Shown: piece after piece, positions 5,440-64,000 of the stretch
Numbering within the stretch: the stretch's first letter is position 1
Layout: every line of letters starts with the position of its first letter
DNA from: Apus apus
Taxonomy: Eukaryota > Chordata > Aves > Apodiformes > Apodidae
Direction: 5' to 3'
DNA: 64,000 nucleotides
NCBI RefSeq assembly: GCF_020740795.1
Contig: NC_067299.1
Coordinates: 6,494,001 to 6,558,000, forward strand
Translations under genes and position numbers: made by a program
Notes under the pieces: generated by a model
The model's input: the letters and a program-made list of their open reading frames with translations, nothing else
What the model was told of the DNA's origin: nothing
Databases searched by the model: none

Positions 5440-5525
5440 CCTGCTCCTGGGAGAGACCGTCCTGCCCCGCAAGGAGATGCTGCTCTCTCTCTCCAAGTTC
5501 CTCTCCTTGAATCTCTCCTGCTCTC
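5440..5525 (-). other. NOS2: NOS2 exon 1 (non-coding, inferred)
   Basis: The 3' boundary is a good donor, GAGCAGG|gtaagctg, at 5440/5439. The 5' boundary is inferred by placing transcription start about 25-30 bases downstream of the TATA box at 5556-5550. The resulting exon is roughly 85 bases of GA-rich leader. Mammalian NOS2 also has a short non-coding exon 1 before the ATG-bearing exon 2. The TSS is an estimate, accurate to about ten bases. Confidence 0.7.
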
Positions 5526-5549
5526 TTGCCCTCCTGGGAGGCAAAAGCA

Positions 5550-5614
5550 TTTTATACTGCAGGCTCGTGTATGCAAAAGAGCAGAGCCAGGCTGAGCAGG
5601 GAAGGGGGAATCCC
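5550..5614 (-). promoter_or_regulatory. NOS2: NOS2 core promoter: TATA box, octamer-like element, NF-kB site
   Basis: Reading on the minus strand there is a TATAAAA box at 5556-5550. An octamer-type element (ATGCAAAA on +, TTTTGCAT on -) lies at 5571-5578. A perfect GGGRNWYYCC match (GGGGAATCCC on +) lies at 5605-5614. With a start near 5525 these sit at about -30, -50 and -85. The order and approximate spacing resemble the LPS-responsive proximal promoter of mammalian NOS2, where NF-kB and octamer elements drive induction. The sequence motifs are seen directly; inducibility is inferred from the family. Confidence 0.75.
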
Positions 5615-5880
5615 GGAGGGTCCGGTGCTCCCGCCCCGATGGGTGTGCGGGAGGAGCGCGGGCAGTTCCTGCTGGGCTGAGCATCCCCCGCCCGCAGCCT
5701 GCCCTCACCCCGATTGCTACACCCGCTGCTGGTAAGGGCAGGGTATCACCCGGAGCAGGTTTTTTTTCATGGCAGGCAATGTTAAAAATCTAAAAATAAA
5801 CCCGACTCCTGAAAGAACAGTTGCAGATGTTCTCGCTGGATGCAGCTGCCCTCTACATCGAACCAGCAGCTGCAGAAAAA

Positions 5881-6219
5881 GTCGATGACTTATATGAACT
5901 TCTACAGAGTAAGTCTATGACTTTTATAAACAACTTCTACAGAGTAAGTCTATGACTTCTATGAACAACTTCTGCAGAATAAGTCTATGACTTTCATAAA
6001 CAAATTCTACAGAATAAGTCTATTACTTTTATAAACAAATTCTACAAAATAAGTCTGACTTTTACAGACAAATACTACAGAAGTCTATGACTTTCATAAA
6101 CAACTTCAACAGAATAATTCTATAACTTTCATTAAAAATACTACAGAATAATTCCATAACTTTCATAAACAAATACTACAGAAGAAGTCTATGACTTTCA
6201 TAAACAACTTCTACAGAAC
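5881..6219. repeat. ~35-bp minisatellite, about ten copies
   Basis: Ten imperfect head-to-tail copies of a unit close to GTCTATGACTTTCATAAACA followed by AACTTCTACAGAATAA. Some units are shortened to about 30 bases and two begin TTCTATAACT or TTCCATAACT. The unit is not a multiple of three and stop codons occur, so it is not coding. It lies about 360-700 bases upstream of the inferred NOS2 start. Confidence 0.93.
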
Positions 6220-6850: not shown

Positions 6851-9602
6851 AAGATGGAATTACTGAGCTGATTTTCAATTTTAGGCAACACGTGGACATT
6901 CAGATATTACAAAATTAGGTTTCTACCTGTGGTCTGAAAGCCAAAGTGGTCCTGGAGCCAAGGGTGGCACTCAGGCAGGCAGCTGCAGCCTCAGGAATGC
7001 TGCAAGATTCCAGCAGACACACAGATTTTGGCCTCACTTATCTGCTCATTGATACTATGTAGAATTATCTGAAGGAAACTGTTTAGAACTCTTTTCACAT
7101 TAAAGGCCATTCTTAAATCTGCTGACTAATCCAAGGTCAACATAGTTGCAATGATAACTAGAGAAATATTTACAGGTGCTAATTAAACATCTGCTAAATA
7201 AGGGATAAGGCTGCAAGAGAAACCAGGAAACATTCTTTTCATCTGTCACATTTTTCCTGGACAAGCTCAGGCAAGGCATTTTCATCTTTCTGTGTCTAGT
7301 TTCTCTATTTAAAAATGACCATTAGGTAACAGTGTAAAGCACCCCTAGAGGTAAACTGAGTTATGTGTACATGTGTTCATGCATCAATACACCTGTATAT
7401 GTCCCATCCAGGGTTGCTAGAGAAAAACAGACTTTGAAAACTAGATCTGTGTTTTCTGTAGTCTGAGCACTCATCTCCTTGACTGTATCAAGCACAAGCT
7501 TCTTTGCATCCACTGCTCACAAAGGTTCACACTCAGAATTTTATTTTTTTTACAGGATGCCCTTCCTCTCACCAGAATTATCACTTGACACCACTTTGCT
7601 TAAAGTATTCCAGACAAGGAATCAGCAGGCAGAAAGAAAGTGTGAGCTGTGTGAGCCAATGCCATGCCACAAATTTCTACCTTGCTTCTGATCCATGACA
7701 GCTCTTCCCAAACCATATAGACAGTTTTAATTGCTGGAGTGTGAATACAACTTTATGTATCTTAAGGGTCAAAGTGAAGGTGCTTGAACTGAAAGGAAAC
7801 TTCAGAGGTCAAAGAAAAAGGTTACAACTCTTCTTCACATTTGCTCTTTTAGCAGGGTTTTAAAATTCTATTTGAATCCTTCTCTTTCTTATTAAATCTG
7901 ACCTCTCTTTTCTACAGAACATGGGGAATCTTAATGTCTTGTACTGTAAAAAAACCCATATGTTAGTAGAAATTTAAGTGAATTCTATGATGTCCAATGG
8001 TTCCTAAGCTTTTCTTACTCAGCCTCCTTATTTCTCTGTGCTTGGAGACTGCTGAAATCAAGGAAAGGCTATGTAGAGATTAGATATGAAAATTCAGATT
8101 TGGAATAACCAGAAAAGAAACATCTTTCCTCATGAGAATTGTTTAAAGCATTGGCTGAGGTACAGCCATTCAGGGAACCCCTTAATCACTCCAGTTTTTC
8201 AAACAGGACCTGCTTTTTTACTCACCAAAGTTGATAATAAAACTCCTTCTGTATAATAAGAGAGCACCATTCATTTCTTAGGTGGAGTCAGAGATTAACT
8301 AAATGAGCTCACTGTGCACTCCTACAAATATTCTACACTGCTTGGAAAGTTCTTCCTTCAGAAAACCAATTCCACACATATTTCCTATTTTTGCACAGTG
8401 ACTTGTGTCTCTGCCATATCAAAATGCAAGAACTAGTTGCTTTTCTTGCATTAACCTTGATGAAAGAGGTGCCCTTTCAGAGCAGAATAGCTGACCTATT
8501 CCATGGCATTCGAACCATCCTGTCATTTTGTGTACAATTTTGTTTTGTTTCTGAAAATGTGATGACCTGTAGCCTCAACAATCAGCTTTCTGCAATTTCT
8601 TTCCAATCAAGTCACATTCCTTGTCTGACTACAATAGTCTGCGTCAGATCAAACAGCTATATTCTTAAAAACATTTAAAGAACAAGCTCTGTTTGTGTGA
8701 TTGCTCTGAGATCAGGACACCTTGAGTCTTCAAAGAACTATTACACTGAGGCAAAGCTGATGATGACAAGGGCTGATTTTCCTAATGTTGTGTAACCCTA
8801 GAGAGATGATGTTCAACTCTCCCAACTTTTCATAAATTACTAATGATTTTTTTTTCTAACTCCCTTTTCCTATTTTCTAACCATTTGAGATGTCTCCACC
8901 ACAGTCTTTCAGAAACGTTGCCTACGACATCACGAATCTGAAACACAACATTGCAGGCATCTCTAAACACTTGGCACCTCAGAAGATGTGTTAAGATTTC
9001 ACATGCTCCTCCTGTGATGAGGATGCAGGAATCTATCTGCATTTGCAAACTGATGGCTCTGTTCTTTATGCATTTCCTTTTCCTGAGGAAATGTATTCTG
9101 CTTCCTGCTTTACTCCATTTGATTAACTTCACTGACTGACCAGGAAATGTTCACCCCAAGGTGAGACACCAAAGGGTATAACATCAGTCAAAATGCAGTC
9201 AGATCACAAAAGACCATTTACATCATGGAAACTGACTCGTGCCTTTTAGTAAAATACTCACTACTTCTTTCACACATCAGTGCCTTGTGGTACAAATAAC
9301 TCCAGTAATTTGGTCCATCAAGAACATTCATTCACTTTCTGTTCCTCTTCTGGGCTGAAGGGCTGTTTTTTCTACTGGTGATGAGACTTCATTCACATTT
9401 TCCAGCTTGCTTTTCCTTAACAGTAGAATAGACATAATTTCCCTGGCAACAGTTCAGTGTGTATTAGATACTTTGAAAGTTATTTTAAGACAAGTATTGT
9501 CACTATGTTTGGGCAGTGTCCAACGCCTGCTATGATGGAGCAATGAGCCACAGGAAAGCCTCTCTGTACTTATTCAACTCAGAGGTAAATAAATACATAA
9601 AT
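6851..9602. other. Intergenic, nothing recognised
   Basis: AT-rich single-copy sequence between two CR1 copies. Open frames are all under 105 codons, lack similarity to families I know, and show no splice-bounded conserved peptide. A minus-strand acceptor-like site near 7949 (tttttttacag|TACAAGACA) was considered as a LYRM9 terminal exon and rejected in favour of the exon at 24,828. Confidence 0.45.
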
Positions 9603-18540: not shown

Positions 18541-18549
18541 AAAAAAAAA

Positions 18550-18660
18550 GGACAGGACAGGACAGGACAGGACAGGACAGGACAGGACAGAAAAGAAAAG
18601 AAAAGAAAAGAAAAGAAAAGAAAAGAAAAGAAAAGAAAAGAAAAGAAAAGAAAAGAAAAA
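18550..18660. repeat. Compound pentanucleotide microsatellite
   Basis: Eight perfect GACAG units (18,551-18,590) pass directly into thirteen AAAAG units (18,591-18,655), which then decay into A-rich sequence. Both units are purine-biased and differ at two positions. Long open frames on both strands here are artefacts of the five-base repeat. Confidence 0.97.
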
Positions 18661-24845: not shown

Positions 24846-30986
<6,141 letters not shown>

Positions 30987-59880: not shown

Positions 59881-60406
59881 CAGCTCACCCAGAGGCTGCC
59901 TCTGCTCTGGAGCCCACAAAGGCCCTCAGTGCTCGGCCCAGCCTCACTTGCTTCAAGCCTTTCAGGCAAAGCCTTCAAGCTTTGCCTTCTGGTCTTCATA
60001 AGAACCACCCCCCCAAAAAAACAAACGAACAACAAACTAAGCTCCAAACAGCCAAAAAAAAACCACCCCAAGTATCTCGAGGCCAGTCCCCGCCCCTCCG
60101 CTGGGCAGGCTCCTTGTTGGGACAGGGGGCTTCAGGCATCACCTTCCTCGGGAGAGCGGGGCTGAGGGGGAAACATCCACCTCAGGAAAACAGCTCCTCT
60201 TCCCCCGCCGGGCCCCGGCTGTGCGTGTGTGGGGTGAGGCCTCACCCTGGAGCCAGCACAGCCCCGGGAGGGCAACGGGAGGGCCCTCCCGGCGGGCATA
60301 GGGCCCCCCAGGCCCGGCCGCCCCGGTTCCCGCCCCGCTCCCCTCAGCGCCCGCCGCGACCCCCGCGCCCCGCCGCGTCCTCATCTCACCCCGCCCCGGC
60401 AGCGCC

Positions 60407-61002
60407 ATTGGCTCCTTCCGCCGCCCATCAACCGCTCCCCCGCCTCCCATTGGCCAGCTGCTCACCGGCGGGCGGGCGCATCAGCCACTTCCGGCGCCCT
60501 CACCCGGCCCCCCCCCTCCACGCCCATCGCCGCTAATCACTGGCGCGGAGAGCTGTCAATCAAGCTGCGGCCCCGCCTCCCAGCACTATTGGCCCAGTAA
60601 CCTCTTTTCGGGCTTTGCTTTCTTCCCATTGGCTCATGGGACAGGATCGGGGGCTGCGATTGGGCCAAAAGCAGGTCTCGGGGGCGGGACTCGGCTGAGG
60701 GGGCTAGTCAATTGGCCAGTGGGCTTGGAGCGGCGGCGTGTGATTGGCAGGCAAGGCGAAGGGGGCGGGGCCGCCCCGAGGTGAGGGTTGTGTGAGGTGA
60801 GGGAATCTCGCGGGGTCTCGCCGGCGCTGGGCGCGGAGCCGCGCGCTGATTGGTCGCCGGGGCTCAAGGGGGCGGGGCCGAGCCGGGGTTGGGGGGGGGG
60901 TCTCACCAGCGGCCGGGCCCGATGGGGGCGGGCGGGTTGTATCCCGCGCGCTGATTGGCTGGGAGCGGCTCTCGCGGCGCTTGGTAGGCCGGCTGCGATT
61001 GG
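60407..61002 (+). promoter_or_regulatory. NLK: Ten-fold CCAAT-box (NF-Y) array
   Basis: ATTGG (inverted CCAAT) starts at 60,407, 60,449, 60,588, 60,628, 60,659, 60,711, 60,743, 60,849, 60,954 and 60,998. All ten are in the same orientation and I found no CCAAT on the + strand in this interval. Nine of the ten are followed by C or T, as NF-Y prefers. NF-Y binds CCAAT and opens chromatin at CpG-island promoters; occupancy here is inferred. Confidence 0.8.
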
Positions 61003-61077
61003 CTGTCGGGCGGTTGGTCGGACGCGCGCTCCCCGCATGGGGGCGGGCGGGGAGGGGGAAGGGGGGAGGGACGGGGC

Positions 61078-61095
61078 GGGGGGGGGGGGGGGGGG
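61078..61095. repeat. Poly-G run (18 G)
   Basis: Uninterrupted G homopolymer inside the CpG island, in a wider G-rich stretch (61,038-61,132) with many GGG runs. Its true length is uncertain because such runs are hard to sequence. Confidence 0.9.
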
Positions 61096-61141
61096 AGGCC
61101 CGGCGAAGGGGGGGGGGAGGGAGGGAGGGAGGGCAGGCCGG

Positions 61142-61189
61142 GTGCGCGTGCCCGCCCGTGCGCGTGCCCGCCCGTGCGCGTGCCCGCTG
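61142..61189. repeat. 16-bp CpG-rich tandem repeat, three copies
   Basis: Three head-to-tail copies of GTGCGCGTGCCCGCCC, the third differing in its last two bases. It lies close to the presumed NLK start region. Alternating purine-pyrimidine GTGCGCGTG could favour Z-DNA. Confidence 0.93.
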
Positions 61190-61211
61190 TGCGCCGGGGC
61201 TCCGGGAGGAG

Positions 61212-61785
61212 GTGAGTGCGGCGGCGGCGGCGGCGGCCGGGGGGGCGGAGCGGAGCTGCGCGGCGGGGGCCTGAGGACCCGCCGCCCCCCACCTCTGCCC
61301 GCCGCACCTTCAGGCAGCGGAGACCCCCCCCCCTCCTCAACACCGCCCTTCCTCCTCCTCCTCCTCCTCCTCCTCCCCCCGGCCCGGCCCGCGCCCTCCC
61401 GCCCCGCCGATCAAGGAGAGGGGGGGATCCCCCCCCCGCCGCCGCCGCCGCCGCCGCCCCCCCCCGCCGCCCGGTCAGCCTGTCAAGGCGCCGCCGCCCC
61501 CATCGCATCCTCCCCTCGCCCCCTTTCCTCCCGTCCCTGTCATTCATTTGTCACTTTCCCCGCTCCCATTTTCCCCCCCCCGTCTCTCCCCCCCCCCCCT
61601 CCCCGTTCCTCCCTTGTTTTCTTTTCCGCCCCGTCCCTTTTTTTCTCTCCCTCCCATCTGTTTTGATCTTCTTTTTCACCCCTTCTCGCCCTCCCCCGCC
61701 GGATCCTCGCCCTCCTCCCCTCGCCCCTTCCGTCCCTTCTTCACTTTTCCTGGGTGCTCGTGTGTGTGTGTGTGTGTGTTTTCAG
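61212..61785 (+). other. NLK: Candidate NLK 5' UTR intron
   Basis: A near-consensus donor, GGGAGGAG|gtgagtgcg, lies at 61,211/61,212. A strong acceptor, tgtgtttttcag-like, lies at 61,785/61,786 after a (TG)n run. Between them is nearly 500 bases of strongly pyrimidine-rich (C/T) + strand sequence, including (TCC)n and (CCG)n runs. If real, exon 1 is non-coding and the ATG lies in exon 2. The sites are seen in the sequence; splicing is inferred. The alternative is one long, unspliced 5' UTR exon. Confidence 0.45.
61758..61780. repeat. TG dinucleotide repeat
   Basis: About ten TG units immediately before the candidate acceptor at 61,785. Confidence 0.85.
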
Positions 61786-62408
61786 GCCTTCCAGGAAAAG
61801 TTGCAAACTCCCCGAGTTTGGCTTTTTTTTTTTTTTTTTTTTTTTGCTGTATCTGAGGGAGCAGGTGCCTGAGAGGAGGGAGCCATGTAGGAGGTGCCTG
61901 GGTGCTCAGGGAGGTTTCCAGGAGATAAAACGATGTGGGAATGGAAGGGGTAGACTTGTCAGTCCTCTCAGGGTGTTCCAGGGGAGAGACTTCAGATCCC
62001 CCCTCTGGGAAGAAGGGGGATTAAGCGCTGTATTTCTTTTTTTTTTTATATATTAGAAAAGATAAGGAAAAAAAAACAAACCACAAACCAAACCCAACCC
62101 AGTTGCCCAAGGATGGAGTTTCAGTAGCCAACCACAGCTGGACTGTTGGGGGACAAGGGTTCGTGCCCTCTGGCTCACGCACACATGAAGAGAGAGTCTC
62201 CAAATTGTTTGGCTTCGCGAGGAGATAAGGCCAGTTGAGCTGGATGTTTTTAAAGGTGGGCCGTGCGTGATGAAACCCAACTTCTTTTAAACTCTAGCGG
62301 ATTTCATGATTATTATTTTTTATTATTATTTTTCTGTTATGGCCAAATGACAGCTTGACCCAGTTGTTATCCAATCAAAAGGGCATTTTTTGTTTTGTTT
62401 TGTTTTGA
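61786..62408 (+). other. NLK: NLK 5' UTR (proximal part)
   Basis: Leader upstream of the NLK start codon. It changes from GC-rich to AT-rich after about 62,000 and contains a T-rich patch (62,035-62,055), an A/C-rich patch and TTATTATT sequence. Tiny upstream reading frames occur, such as ATG GCC AAA TGA at 62,339-62,350 and the overlapping ATG ACA GCT TGA at 62,347-62,358. Its 5' limit is unknown. Confidence 0.6.
61823..61845. repeat. Poly-T run (23 T)
   Basis: A long T homopolymer within the probable NLK 5' UTR; length is uncertain. Confidence 0.9.
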
Positions 62409-62863
62409 ATGTCTCTCTGTGGCGCGACAGCCAACGCAAAAATGATGGCGGCTTACAATGGCGGTACGTCTGCAGCAGCAGCAGGTCACCACCACCACCA
62501 TCACCACCACCTTCCTCACCTCCCTCCTCCTCACCTCCATCACCACCACCACCCTCAACATCACTTGCACCCAGGCTCTGCAGCTGCCGTACACCCCGTA
62601 CAGCAACATGCCTCTTCGGCGGCTGCGGCGGCGGCGGCGGCGGCGGCGGCCGCGATGCTCAACCCAGGGCAGCAACAGCCATATTTCCCATCACCGGCAC
62701 CGGGTCAGGCCCCCGGACCAGCTGCAGCAGCCCCAGCTCAGGTACAAGCTGCAGCAGCTGCTGCAGTTAAAGCGCACCATCATCAGCACTCACAACATCC
62801 ACAGCAGCAACTGGACATTGAGCCGGACAGACCTATTGGATATGGAGCCTTTGGTGTTGTCTG
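62409..62863 (+). CDS. NLK: NLK coding exon 1 (Nemo-like kinase)
   Basis: Nemo-like kinase is a proline-directed, MAPK-like Ser/Thr kinase that phosphorylates TCF/LEF, FOXO, Notch and other regulators in nucleus and cytoplasm. The exon encodes residues 1-151 plus two bases of the next codon. In order it carries MSLCGATANAKMMAAYNGG, an Ala run (22-25), eight His (27-34), a His/Pro-rich stretch to about residue 54, a 12-Ala run, a Pro/Ala/Gln-rich linker, and then DIEPDRPIGYGAFGVVW. The GYGAFG glycine-rich loop in that last segment starts the kinase domain. It is almost identical to human NLK, a 527-residue protein; the remaining exons lie right of the window. The donor TG|gtgagtaac splits the Trp codon. 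Met1 has a weak Kozak context (T at -3), whereas Met13 has A at -3 and G at +4. Confidence 0.98.
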
Positions 62864-64000
62864 GTGAGTAACCAAAAAAAACCCCCCAAAAACCTGAACC
62901 GGTTTTTCCTTTTCATATATATATATATATTTTTTACCAGATCAGAATTTGTTCTTGGTTCCTACAACTTGGCTGCTTCCTACAACTTTTATCTCTTTTT
63001 ACTGGTTCTTCTCTGTTCTTAGAGAGTTGGCTTCACTGGTGTTTGTTGGCAGAACAAGGTTTAGAGTGGTGGAAGAGCAACCTCTGACTAACAGGCCACG
63101 CAATCTCTTGAGACAGATGCAACGTATTTATATACCTTCCATACATTTTGTTAGAATATGTATTCCATGTAGGTAAGCCGTGCTTCCTAAAGTTTCAGGT
63201 TACCAAATGAGCATTAGAATATATGTTTTGACCTGAGTTAAGACTTAGACATTAAAAGCATATGAAAATGTCTTCCTTCTTCAGTCACCTGTCAAGATCT
63301 TTGTCTAGGAGGCTGTTTGACCTCCAGCAGTGTGCTCTGTGCTACCTGAAACAGAGGATCTGAACTTTGCTCTCCTCTCATAAATGGAGATGGGATTTTC
63401 TGTCTCACTGTAGCACTGCCCACAGTCCTGTCATTCCCACCAGCTGCTATTTCAGAGGATTCCGTCAGGGGAACGTAATCTCTTCCAATATATTTTGTGA
63501 CCACCTTCATATAATGTCTGTAATTATTGCTCTTCGGAATCACTGATGTAAAACTGGCATGTTTTGTTGTTTTTTTTTTTTTTTGTGTTGGTTTTTTTTT
63601 GTGGTTTGCTTTTTTGTTTTGTTTTTAAATAACCCGTTGTCAGTTTAACAAGTTCTGAGCTGTGCATTAGGAACATGAAGGATGCTTCCGTGGTGTTTTT
63701 GAGAGCGAGCGCGTTGCAGCACACTTCCTGTCTCACAGAAACAAAGTTTGAAGTGTGCAACTGCCTTCTGTCCCTGCAGAACTTTCTATACAACCTTCAG
63801 TCGACAAGGCTTTCTGTGGTGCTTGAGGAGCTTTGCTTTAGGTACTGCTTTAATTTTACTGAGAGAGAAGAGTTCTGGGCCTGGGGTTGCAGCCTGTACC
63901 CACACATGGTAGCGAAGCACCGTGCAGGACGGGCCTCAGAAGAGCAAGACATGTTATTCCTTCATCCCAGCCCTTAAAGTTGGTCACTCATAACCAGGCT
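62864..64000 (+). other. NLK: NLK intron 1 (start)
   Basis: Begins with the strong donor gtgagtaac. It contains a short (TA)n run at 62,916-62,931 and a T-rich low-complexity patch at about 63,560-63,627. No exon or other gene was recognised up to the window edge. Confidence 0.9.
63560..63627. repeat. T-rich low-complexity tract
   Basis: T homopolymers separated by single G or GTG, on the + (NLK sense) strand. It resembles a degenerate TTTTG simple repeat. Confidence 0.8.

Follow-up and report, generated by a model that had tools for sequence, protein, structure and literature searches.

Ten CCAAT boxes of one orientation in the CpG island upstream of NLK in Apus apus: a likely NF-Y array with a helical register shared by a wider class

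In human promoters, direct CCAAT repeats are far commoner than inverted repeats in every set with a single exception, with spacing peaks at 31, 41, 52 and 63 bp, as described in PMC4982600, which also cites a value of about 80 degrees for the DNA bend made by NF-Y. Upstream of start sites in human, NF-Y sites are reported to favour 10.5-bp positions (PMC11269187), and the NFY motif to be 5.3-fold enriched in human bidirectional promoters (PMC3121118). In the mouse, Sp2 is described as joining NF-Y at tandem boxes (PMC4368557), and NF-Y as keeping promoters nucleosome-depleted and the start site in place in embryonic stem cells (Oldfield 2019, PMC6624317). A CCAAT-driven NFYB bidirectional promoter has been reported for chicken GHR-AS-I6/CCDC152 (PMC5663575), while the ERV9/LTR12 U3 enhancer is said to carry 5-17 tandem NF-Y units of about 41 bp each, in thousands of copies (PMC11853044).

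We analysed a window of 64,000 nucleotides from the Apus apus genome (contig NC_067299.1, positions 6,494,001 to 6,558,000, forward strand). An array of ten CCAAT boxes lies inside a CpG island of this window, 1.4-2.0 kb upstream of the ATG of a gene that we take to be NLK from its protein, a name that the synteny with LYRM9 supports. The features are:

60001..61900, unstranded: CpG island with the array
60407..60411, plus strand: CCAAT box 1 (ATTGG), phase 0
60449..60453, plus strand: CCAAT box 2, phase 0
60588..60592, plus strand: CCAAT box 3, 2.5 bp off the face
60628..60632, plus strand: CCAAT box 4, phase 0.5
60659..60663, plus strand: CCAAT box 5, phase 0, 31 bp from box 4
60711..60715, plus strand: CCAAT box 6, phase -0.5
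60743..60747, plus strand: CCAAT box 7, phase 0, 32 bp from box 6
60849..60853, plus strand: CCAAT box 8, phase 1, within the 15-nt repeat CCGCGCGCTGATTGG
60954..60958, plus strand: CCAAT box 9, phase 1, in the second copy of that repeat, 105 bp on
60998..61002, plus strand: CCAAT box 10, 3 bp off the face
62409..62864, plus strand: first NLK coding exon, with an acceptor-like site ending at 62056

The NLK exon gave no informative match in Pfam, NCBIfam or PDB. We found no report of a CCAAT array at NLK in the literature searched, which covered few subscription journals, and in the portions of that literature available the term 'NLK promoter' appeared only in the context of HOTAIR/EZH2.

A word search re-located every start, and the ten boxes on the plus strand lay exactly at the offsets given in an earlier note on this sequence. 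That note had put the chance expectation at about 0.6. Dinucleotide-preserving shuffles of 60300-61049 (750 bp) agreed, with a mean of 0.77 and a maximum of 5, and none of 5000 shuffles reached ten. An origin of the array by chance or composition was thus rejected. ATTGG ranked first by Poisson tail among the pentamers present in this region, and CCAAT was absent from the plus strand in 60000-61500. The common strand of all ten boxes has a two-sided P of 0.002, given independent orientations. In the window as a whole ATTGG is rarer than shuffling predicts (100 occurrences on both strands, shuffle mean 185), so the cluster at the NLK island is local. The P values for the array flatter it, because both word and region had been picked for the earlier note after viewing the sequence.

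We also compared the island with others, drawn from the window, 10 kb past it and 27 sampled 10-kb stretches of the same contig. This gave 18 islands. The NLK island had 10 boxes per 596 bp, one other had 5, and the remaining 16, which include the second island of the NLK window, had 0-3. The view that ten is unusual therefore held in this small sample: among the 16 islands outside the window, one had 5 boxes per 596 bp and the others 0-3. Ten boxes are the extreme of the sampled islands. The island with 5 boxes per 596 bp, at 7866-8651 of stretch L021 on the same contig, carries six CCAAT boxes altogether, all on one strand, with two 31-bp gaps.

The flanks of the boxes were examined next to the core. 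C directly follows ATTGG at 8/10 array boxes, as against 14 of the 90 other ATTGG words in the window; GG steps of the island are followed by C in 48/126 cases. G or C is expected before the box at NF-Y sites, and stands there at 8/10 boxes, which is no excess over composition (the island has G or C before 16 of its 22 AT steps, counting those in the boxes). The same letters might serve another reader, since TTGGC is an NF1-type half site and CTGATTGG a Y-box protein motif; the former is present at 8/10 boxes and the latter at 2/10 (60849 and 60954). However, the AT of CCAAT, dispensable in an NF1 half site, is kept in all ten, and the spacing of the array matches NF-Y arrays. We consider NF1 or Y-box proteins very unlikely as the readers of these words. 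The predicted NF-Y sites in a promoter island are well supported by the core, the 3' flank, the spacing and the same-genome class described below, and NF-Y is the likely reading of the array. The genome has genes for members of the NF-YB/NF-YC histone-fold family (PF00808).

With a helical turn of 10.5 bp, eight of the ten boxes fall within 1.05 bp of one face, and those at offsets 181 and 591 (60588 and 60998) are off by 2.5 and 3 bp, as had been claimed. The phase offsets of boxes 1-10 are 0, 0, 2.5, 0.5, 0, -0.5, 0, 1, 1 and 3 (R = 0.80). For ten sites placed at random, P was 0.0006 with the period fixed at 10.5 and 0.0026 with a scan of 10-11; eight of ten boxes on the best face gave P = 0.0034, or P = 0.0012 when anchored on the first box. 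Omitting the box at 60954, in the second repeat copy, left P = 0.0016, and random sites at least 24 bp apart matched the phase in 0/3000 draws. The nine adjacent gaps are 42, 139, 40, 31, 52, 32, 106, 105 and 44 bp, of which six differ from a whole number of turns by no more than 1.05 bp (P = 0.007), and the orientation is the same for 10/10 boxes, as in the direct-repeat class of NF-Y promoters. NF-Y footprints taken as -7 to +17 (PMC4982600) overlap at none of the ten boxes. The gaps of 139, 106 and 105 bp, longer than short-range pair spacing, count against an NF-Y array, and so do the two off-face boxes. These two boxes also stand against a simple same-face rule, together with the report that GAL4-VP16 and ZEBRA act better on opposite faces and that same-face synergy is not universal (PMC3267773).

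A spacing near 10.5 bp would also be expected if these AT-bearing words were not protein sites but served the rotational positioning of nucleosomes on GC-rich DNA. The AT-type dinucleotides outside the boxes, however, were not significantly phased (n = 46, R = 0.22, P about 0.11), and the excess is limited to one pentamer, mostly followed by C; we hold this explanation to be extremely unlikely.

We then asked how same-strand triples of boxes are spaced elsewhere in the genome, a test independent of the NLK sequence. Counts of triples were as follows. The G/C-flanked triple gave 322 + 223 matches and was outnumbered by its backward-read control (1549 + 2439), and the unrestricted ATTGG triple gave 1246 + 1282 and was likewise outnumbered (4720 + 5748). 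Read backwards, the core becomes GGTTA, which is similar to the telomere repeat, and this similarity may account for the excess. As the controls outnumber the triples, raw counts against them carry no weight. Genome-wide, with satellites included, there were 545 G/C-flanked same-strand triples against 31 in one mixed-orientation class. Among the matches listed for contigs C1-C7, 30 CpG-type non-tandem same-strand arrays stood against 15 mixed arrays in any context, and the bias to one orientation is therefore at least about twofold. Among the 100 matches listed for the unrestricted triple, most belonged to a single dispersed repeat that begins with ATTGGACACAAGAGG or a similar sequence (e.g. 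C1:50255-50343) and is perhaps a LINE piece.

For the phase test we used 56 of the 100 listed matches of the 545 triples, running from C1 into C8. The other 44 comprised satellites and simple repeats, a pair of overlapping copies of C7:19603990, and nine matches listed with no letters, eight of these inside a C8 satellite. Removal of 12 triples that were not CpG-type and 12 that looked tandem (unit identity at least 0.6) left 32 triples, or 30 independent arrays, as two pairs share boxes; NLK is not among them. Among these listed matches the gaps pile up at 31-32, 41-43 and 51-53 bp, and none of the 64 gaps is of 36-39 bp. In the 32 listed triples, 38/64 gaps come to within 1.05 bp of one of the values 31.5, 42 and 52.5, against 14.5 expected under a null uniform over the allowed gap range, and 0/20000 draws did as well. 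The 30 listed independent arrays gave a mean cos of 0.57 over 60 gaps (0/20000). The gaps fix the period loosely: when the phase is allowed to vary, a period of about 11.4 (R 0.61) has a small advantage over 10.5. Outer distances gave R 0.44 (P 0.001) for the 32 same-strand triples and R 0.16 (P 0.46) for 30 of 31 mixed-orientation triples, the latter unfiltered for CpG type, unlike the former.

Spacing by whole turns is thus a property of the class of CCAAT arrays with one orientation, as far as the listed matches cover this genome. The register seen at NLK is real, and the earlier note is partly supported, with likely NF-Y sites and a count that is unusual in the small sample. The register is not special to NLK: other same-strand arrays here have it too, and arrays of this class are known from human promoters, while the ten-box extent is the sampled extreme.

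The genome also contains CCAAT minisatellites, at C5:14800226 (30 bp unit), C7:19603990 (30), C7:34513328 (32), C1:22536454 (31), C3:57352238 (52), C6:1125506 (35) and C5:84610701 (16). Several of their units are near whole helical turns, and those with 30-35 or 52 bp units show one way in which CCAAT arrays can arise. Within the window, a 35-bp tandem repeat (x 9.3, 5900-6218) adjoins a small CpG-rich patch (5451-5950), and pentanucleotide arrays of AGGAC and AGAAA adjoin each other at 18549-18659.

The NLK array might likewise have come from local duplication of a box-bearing unit, with phase and orientation as by-products of little function. Its 15-nt repeats, CCGCGCGCTGATTGG with copies 105 bp apart and AAGGGGGCGGGGCCG with copies 107 bp apart, a 12-nt word GGCTGCGATTGG present twice, and the minisatellites with units of 30, 31, 32, 35 and 52 bp speak for this, as do the segments 60738-60848 and 60844-60953, which align above mononucleotide shuffles (P 0.004; next pair P 0.016). 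However, two other segment pairs fail to align (P 0.46 and 0.51), the flanks of the 45 box pairs are on average identical at 16.1/50 positions against 15.1 for random pairs, and the phase persists in the 32 listed non-tandem triples elsewhere. A duplication origin in this sense is unlikely, though it deserves some weight; full tandem duplication was rejected, the short repeats and some segment pairs being partial traces. When the island was searched against its own 1.1 Gb genome (skipping very common words), the one match was itself, which disfavours an origin from an LTR or other dispersed repeat. A retroviral LTR remnant suggests itself because the long series of NF-Y sites in LTR12 is well known (PMC11853044). 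With this single match, and no tandem unit of about 41 bp found in the array, we give such an origin next to no credence.

GC boxes stand between and beside the CCAAT boxes:

60681..61079, plus strand: six GC boxes GGGGCGG, starting at 60681, 60762, 60869, 60925, 61040 and 61073
60324, 60336, 60397 and 60777, minus strand: GC boxes

Their phase showed nothing clear (R = 0.24, nine GGGCGG). Just 3' of the last CCAAT box, 61039-61130 is very G-rich, with a unit of about 29 bp (x 2.9) and long G runs; G-quadruplexes or R-loops could form here. A 16-bp perfect repeat, GTGCGCGTGCCCGCCC (x 2.9), follows at 61142-61187.

The earlier note had also suggested that the island might be a bidirectional promoter. 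It had not brought in LYRM9, which we observed on the minus strand, head to head with NLK on the plus strand, as genes sharing a bidirectional promoter would be:

26835..26960, minus strand: LYRM9 exon with the ATG (Pfam Complex1_LYR, 2e-08), with a splice acceptor upstream
26038..26130, minus strand: next LYRM9 coding exon (Pfam Complex1_LYR, 0.00059, under the cut-off)
61212..61217, plus strand: possible 5' splice site GAG/GTGAGT of a candidate noncoding first NLK exon, as a lead

A good splice acceptor lies 15 bases upstream of the LYRM9 ATG exon, so a noncoding exon is probably present further upstream. Bidirectional promoters are marked by start sites within about 1 kb of each other; the LYRM9 ATG exon itself is 33 kb from the NLK island, and no CpG island lies between them (at most 6 CpG per 300-bp window tested). 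The only CpG-rich stretches upstream of LYRM9 within the window are the NLK island and the NLK coding exon (62351-62900), and the island with the array is the nearest CpG island upstream of LYRM9. The head-to-head arrangement, the acceptor and this position together make a shared LYRM9/NLK promoter at the array island plausible. LYRM9 and NLK are far apart in mammals, and sharing would therefore not look ancestral. In the portions of the searched literature available, no shared promoter was reported for the two genes.

The GC skew of the island changes sign near 60.6 kb, where C-rich gives way to G-rich, and is negative again after about 61.25 kb. Bidirectional activity is made more plausible by the head-to-head LYRM9 and by this flip within the array. 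Donor-like GGTGAG words occur on the minus strand at 60246, 60390, 60466 and 60504, among others, and on the plus strand at 60780, 60796 and 61211, among others. As a lead, flip and donor-like words fit divergent transcription from mid-array, with LYRM9 the candidate minus-strand product. Against this, the CCAAT boxes point one way though the skew is mirror-like; the array thus lacks the symmetry that a divergent promoter might have.

Taken as a whole, we consider it probable that this is an NF-Y array in the CpG-island promoter of NLK, with in-phase trimers, an open island and a probable start on the minus strand. With one-way boxes at mostly whole turns, several NF-Y trimers could bind next to one another with no clash, and in-phase trimers would bend the DNA in the same direction. 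Together with Sp-family factors on the interleaved GC boxes, they may hold a stretch of about 600 bp open ahead of the NLK start, and this platform would guide initiation to its downstream side. Transcription on the minus strand probably begins in the island too, and may include a noncoding first exon of LYRM9. The suggestion that the array keeps the island nucleosome-free is consistent with the mouse stem cell work (Oldfield 2019, PMC6624317). A bolder proposal is that the bends of eight in-phase trimers add up to a continuous nucleosome-like histone-fold curl, standing in for some three nucleosomes at a promoter that LYRM9 and NLK would share; same-strand, whole-turn arrays would then form one architecture general in birds and mammals instead of a set of independent sites. 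We regard this as a long shot.

With its eight in-phase and two off-phase boxes, the NLK island offers an extreme natural test case for CCAAT orientation and register. The human spacing peaks shared by the bird triples suggest a constraint older than both lineages, and if LYRM9 shares the island, this would explain where LYRM9 starts in birds.

In comparison with the systems described so far, the ERV9/LTR12 enhancer (PMC11853044) is also a long array of NF-Y sites, predicted ones at NLK, but the NLK array is non-tandem and has one match in its own genome. The chicken GHR-AS-I6/CCDC152 promoter (PMC5663575) is similar in being avian, with head-to-head transcripts and CCAAT; it has a 102-bp core defined by reporter assay, whereas NLK has a long array and a putative sharing with LYRM9. 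At the mouse Sp2/NF-Y promoters (PMC4368557) the boxes are likewise often 30-50 bp apart and the strongest Sp2 peaks have several CCAAT pairs, while NLK has more boxes, as predicted sites. The human NF-Y/c-Fos promoters, as described in PMC4982600, resemble the NLK array in the single orientation, the gaps of about 31, 41-42 and 52 bp and the promoter-type DNA. That class was defined on neighbouring pairs, whereas NLK has ten boxes in 596 bp, in a bird, as predicted sites. Together, these comparisons and the same-genome triples suggest that the NLK array is an extreme form of a promoter layout found repeatedly in this genome and also described in human.
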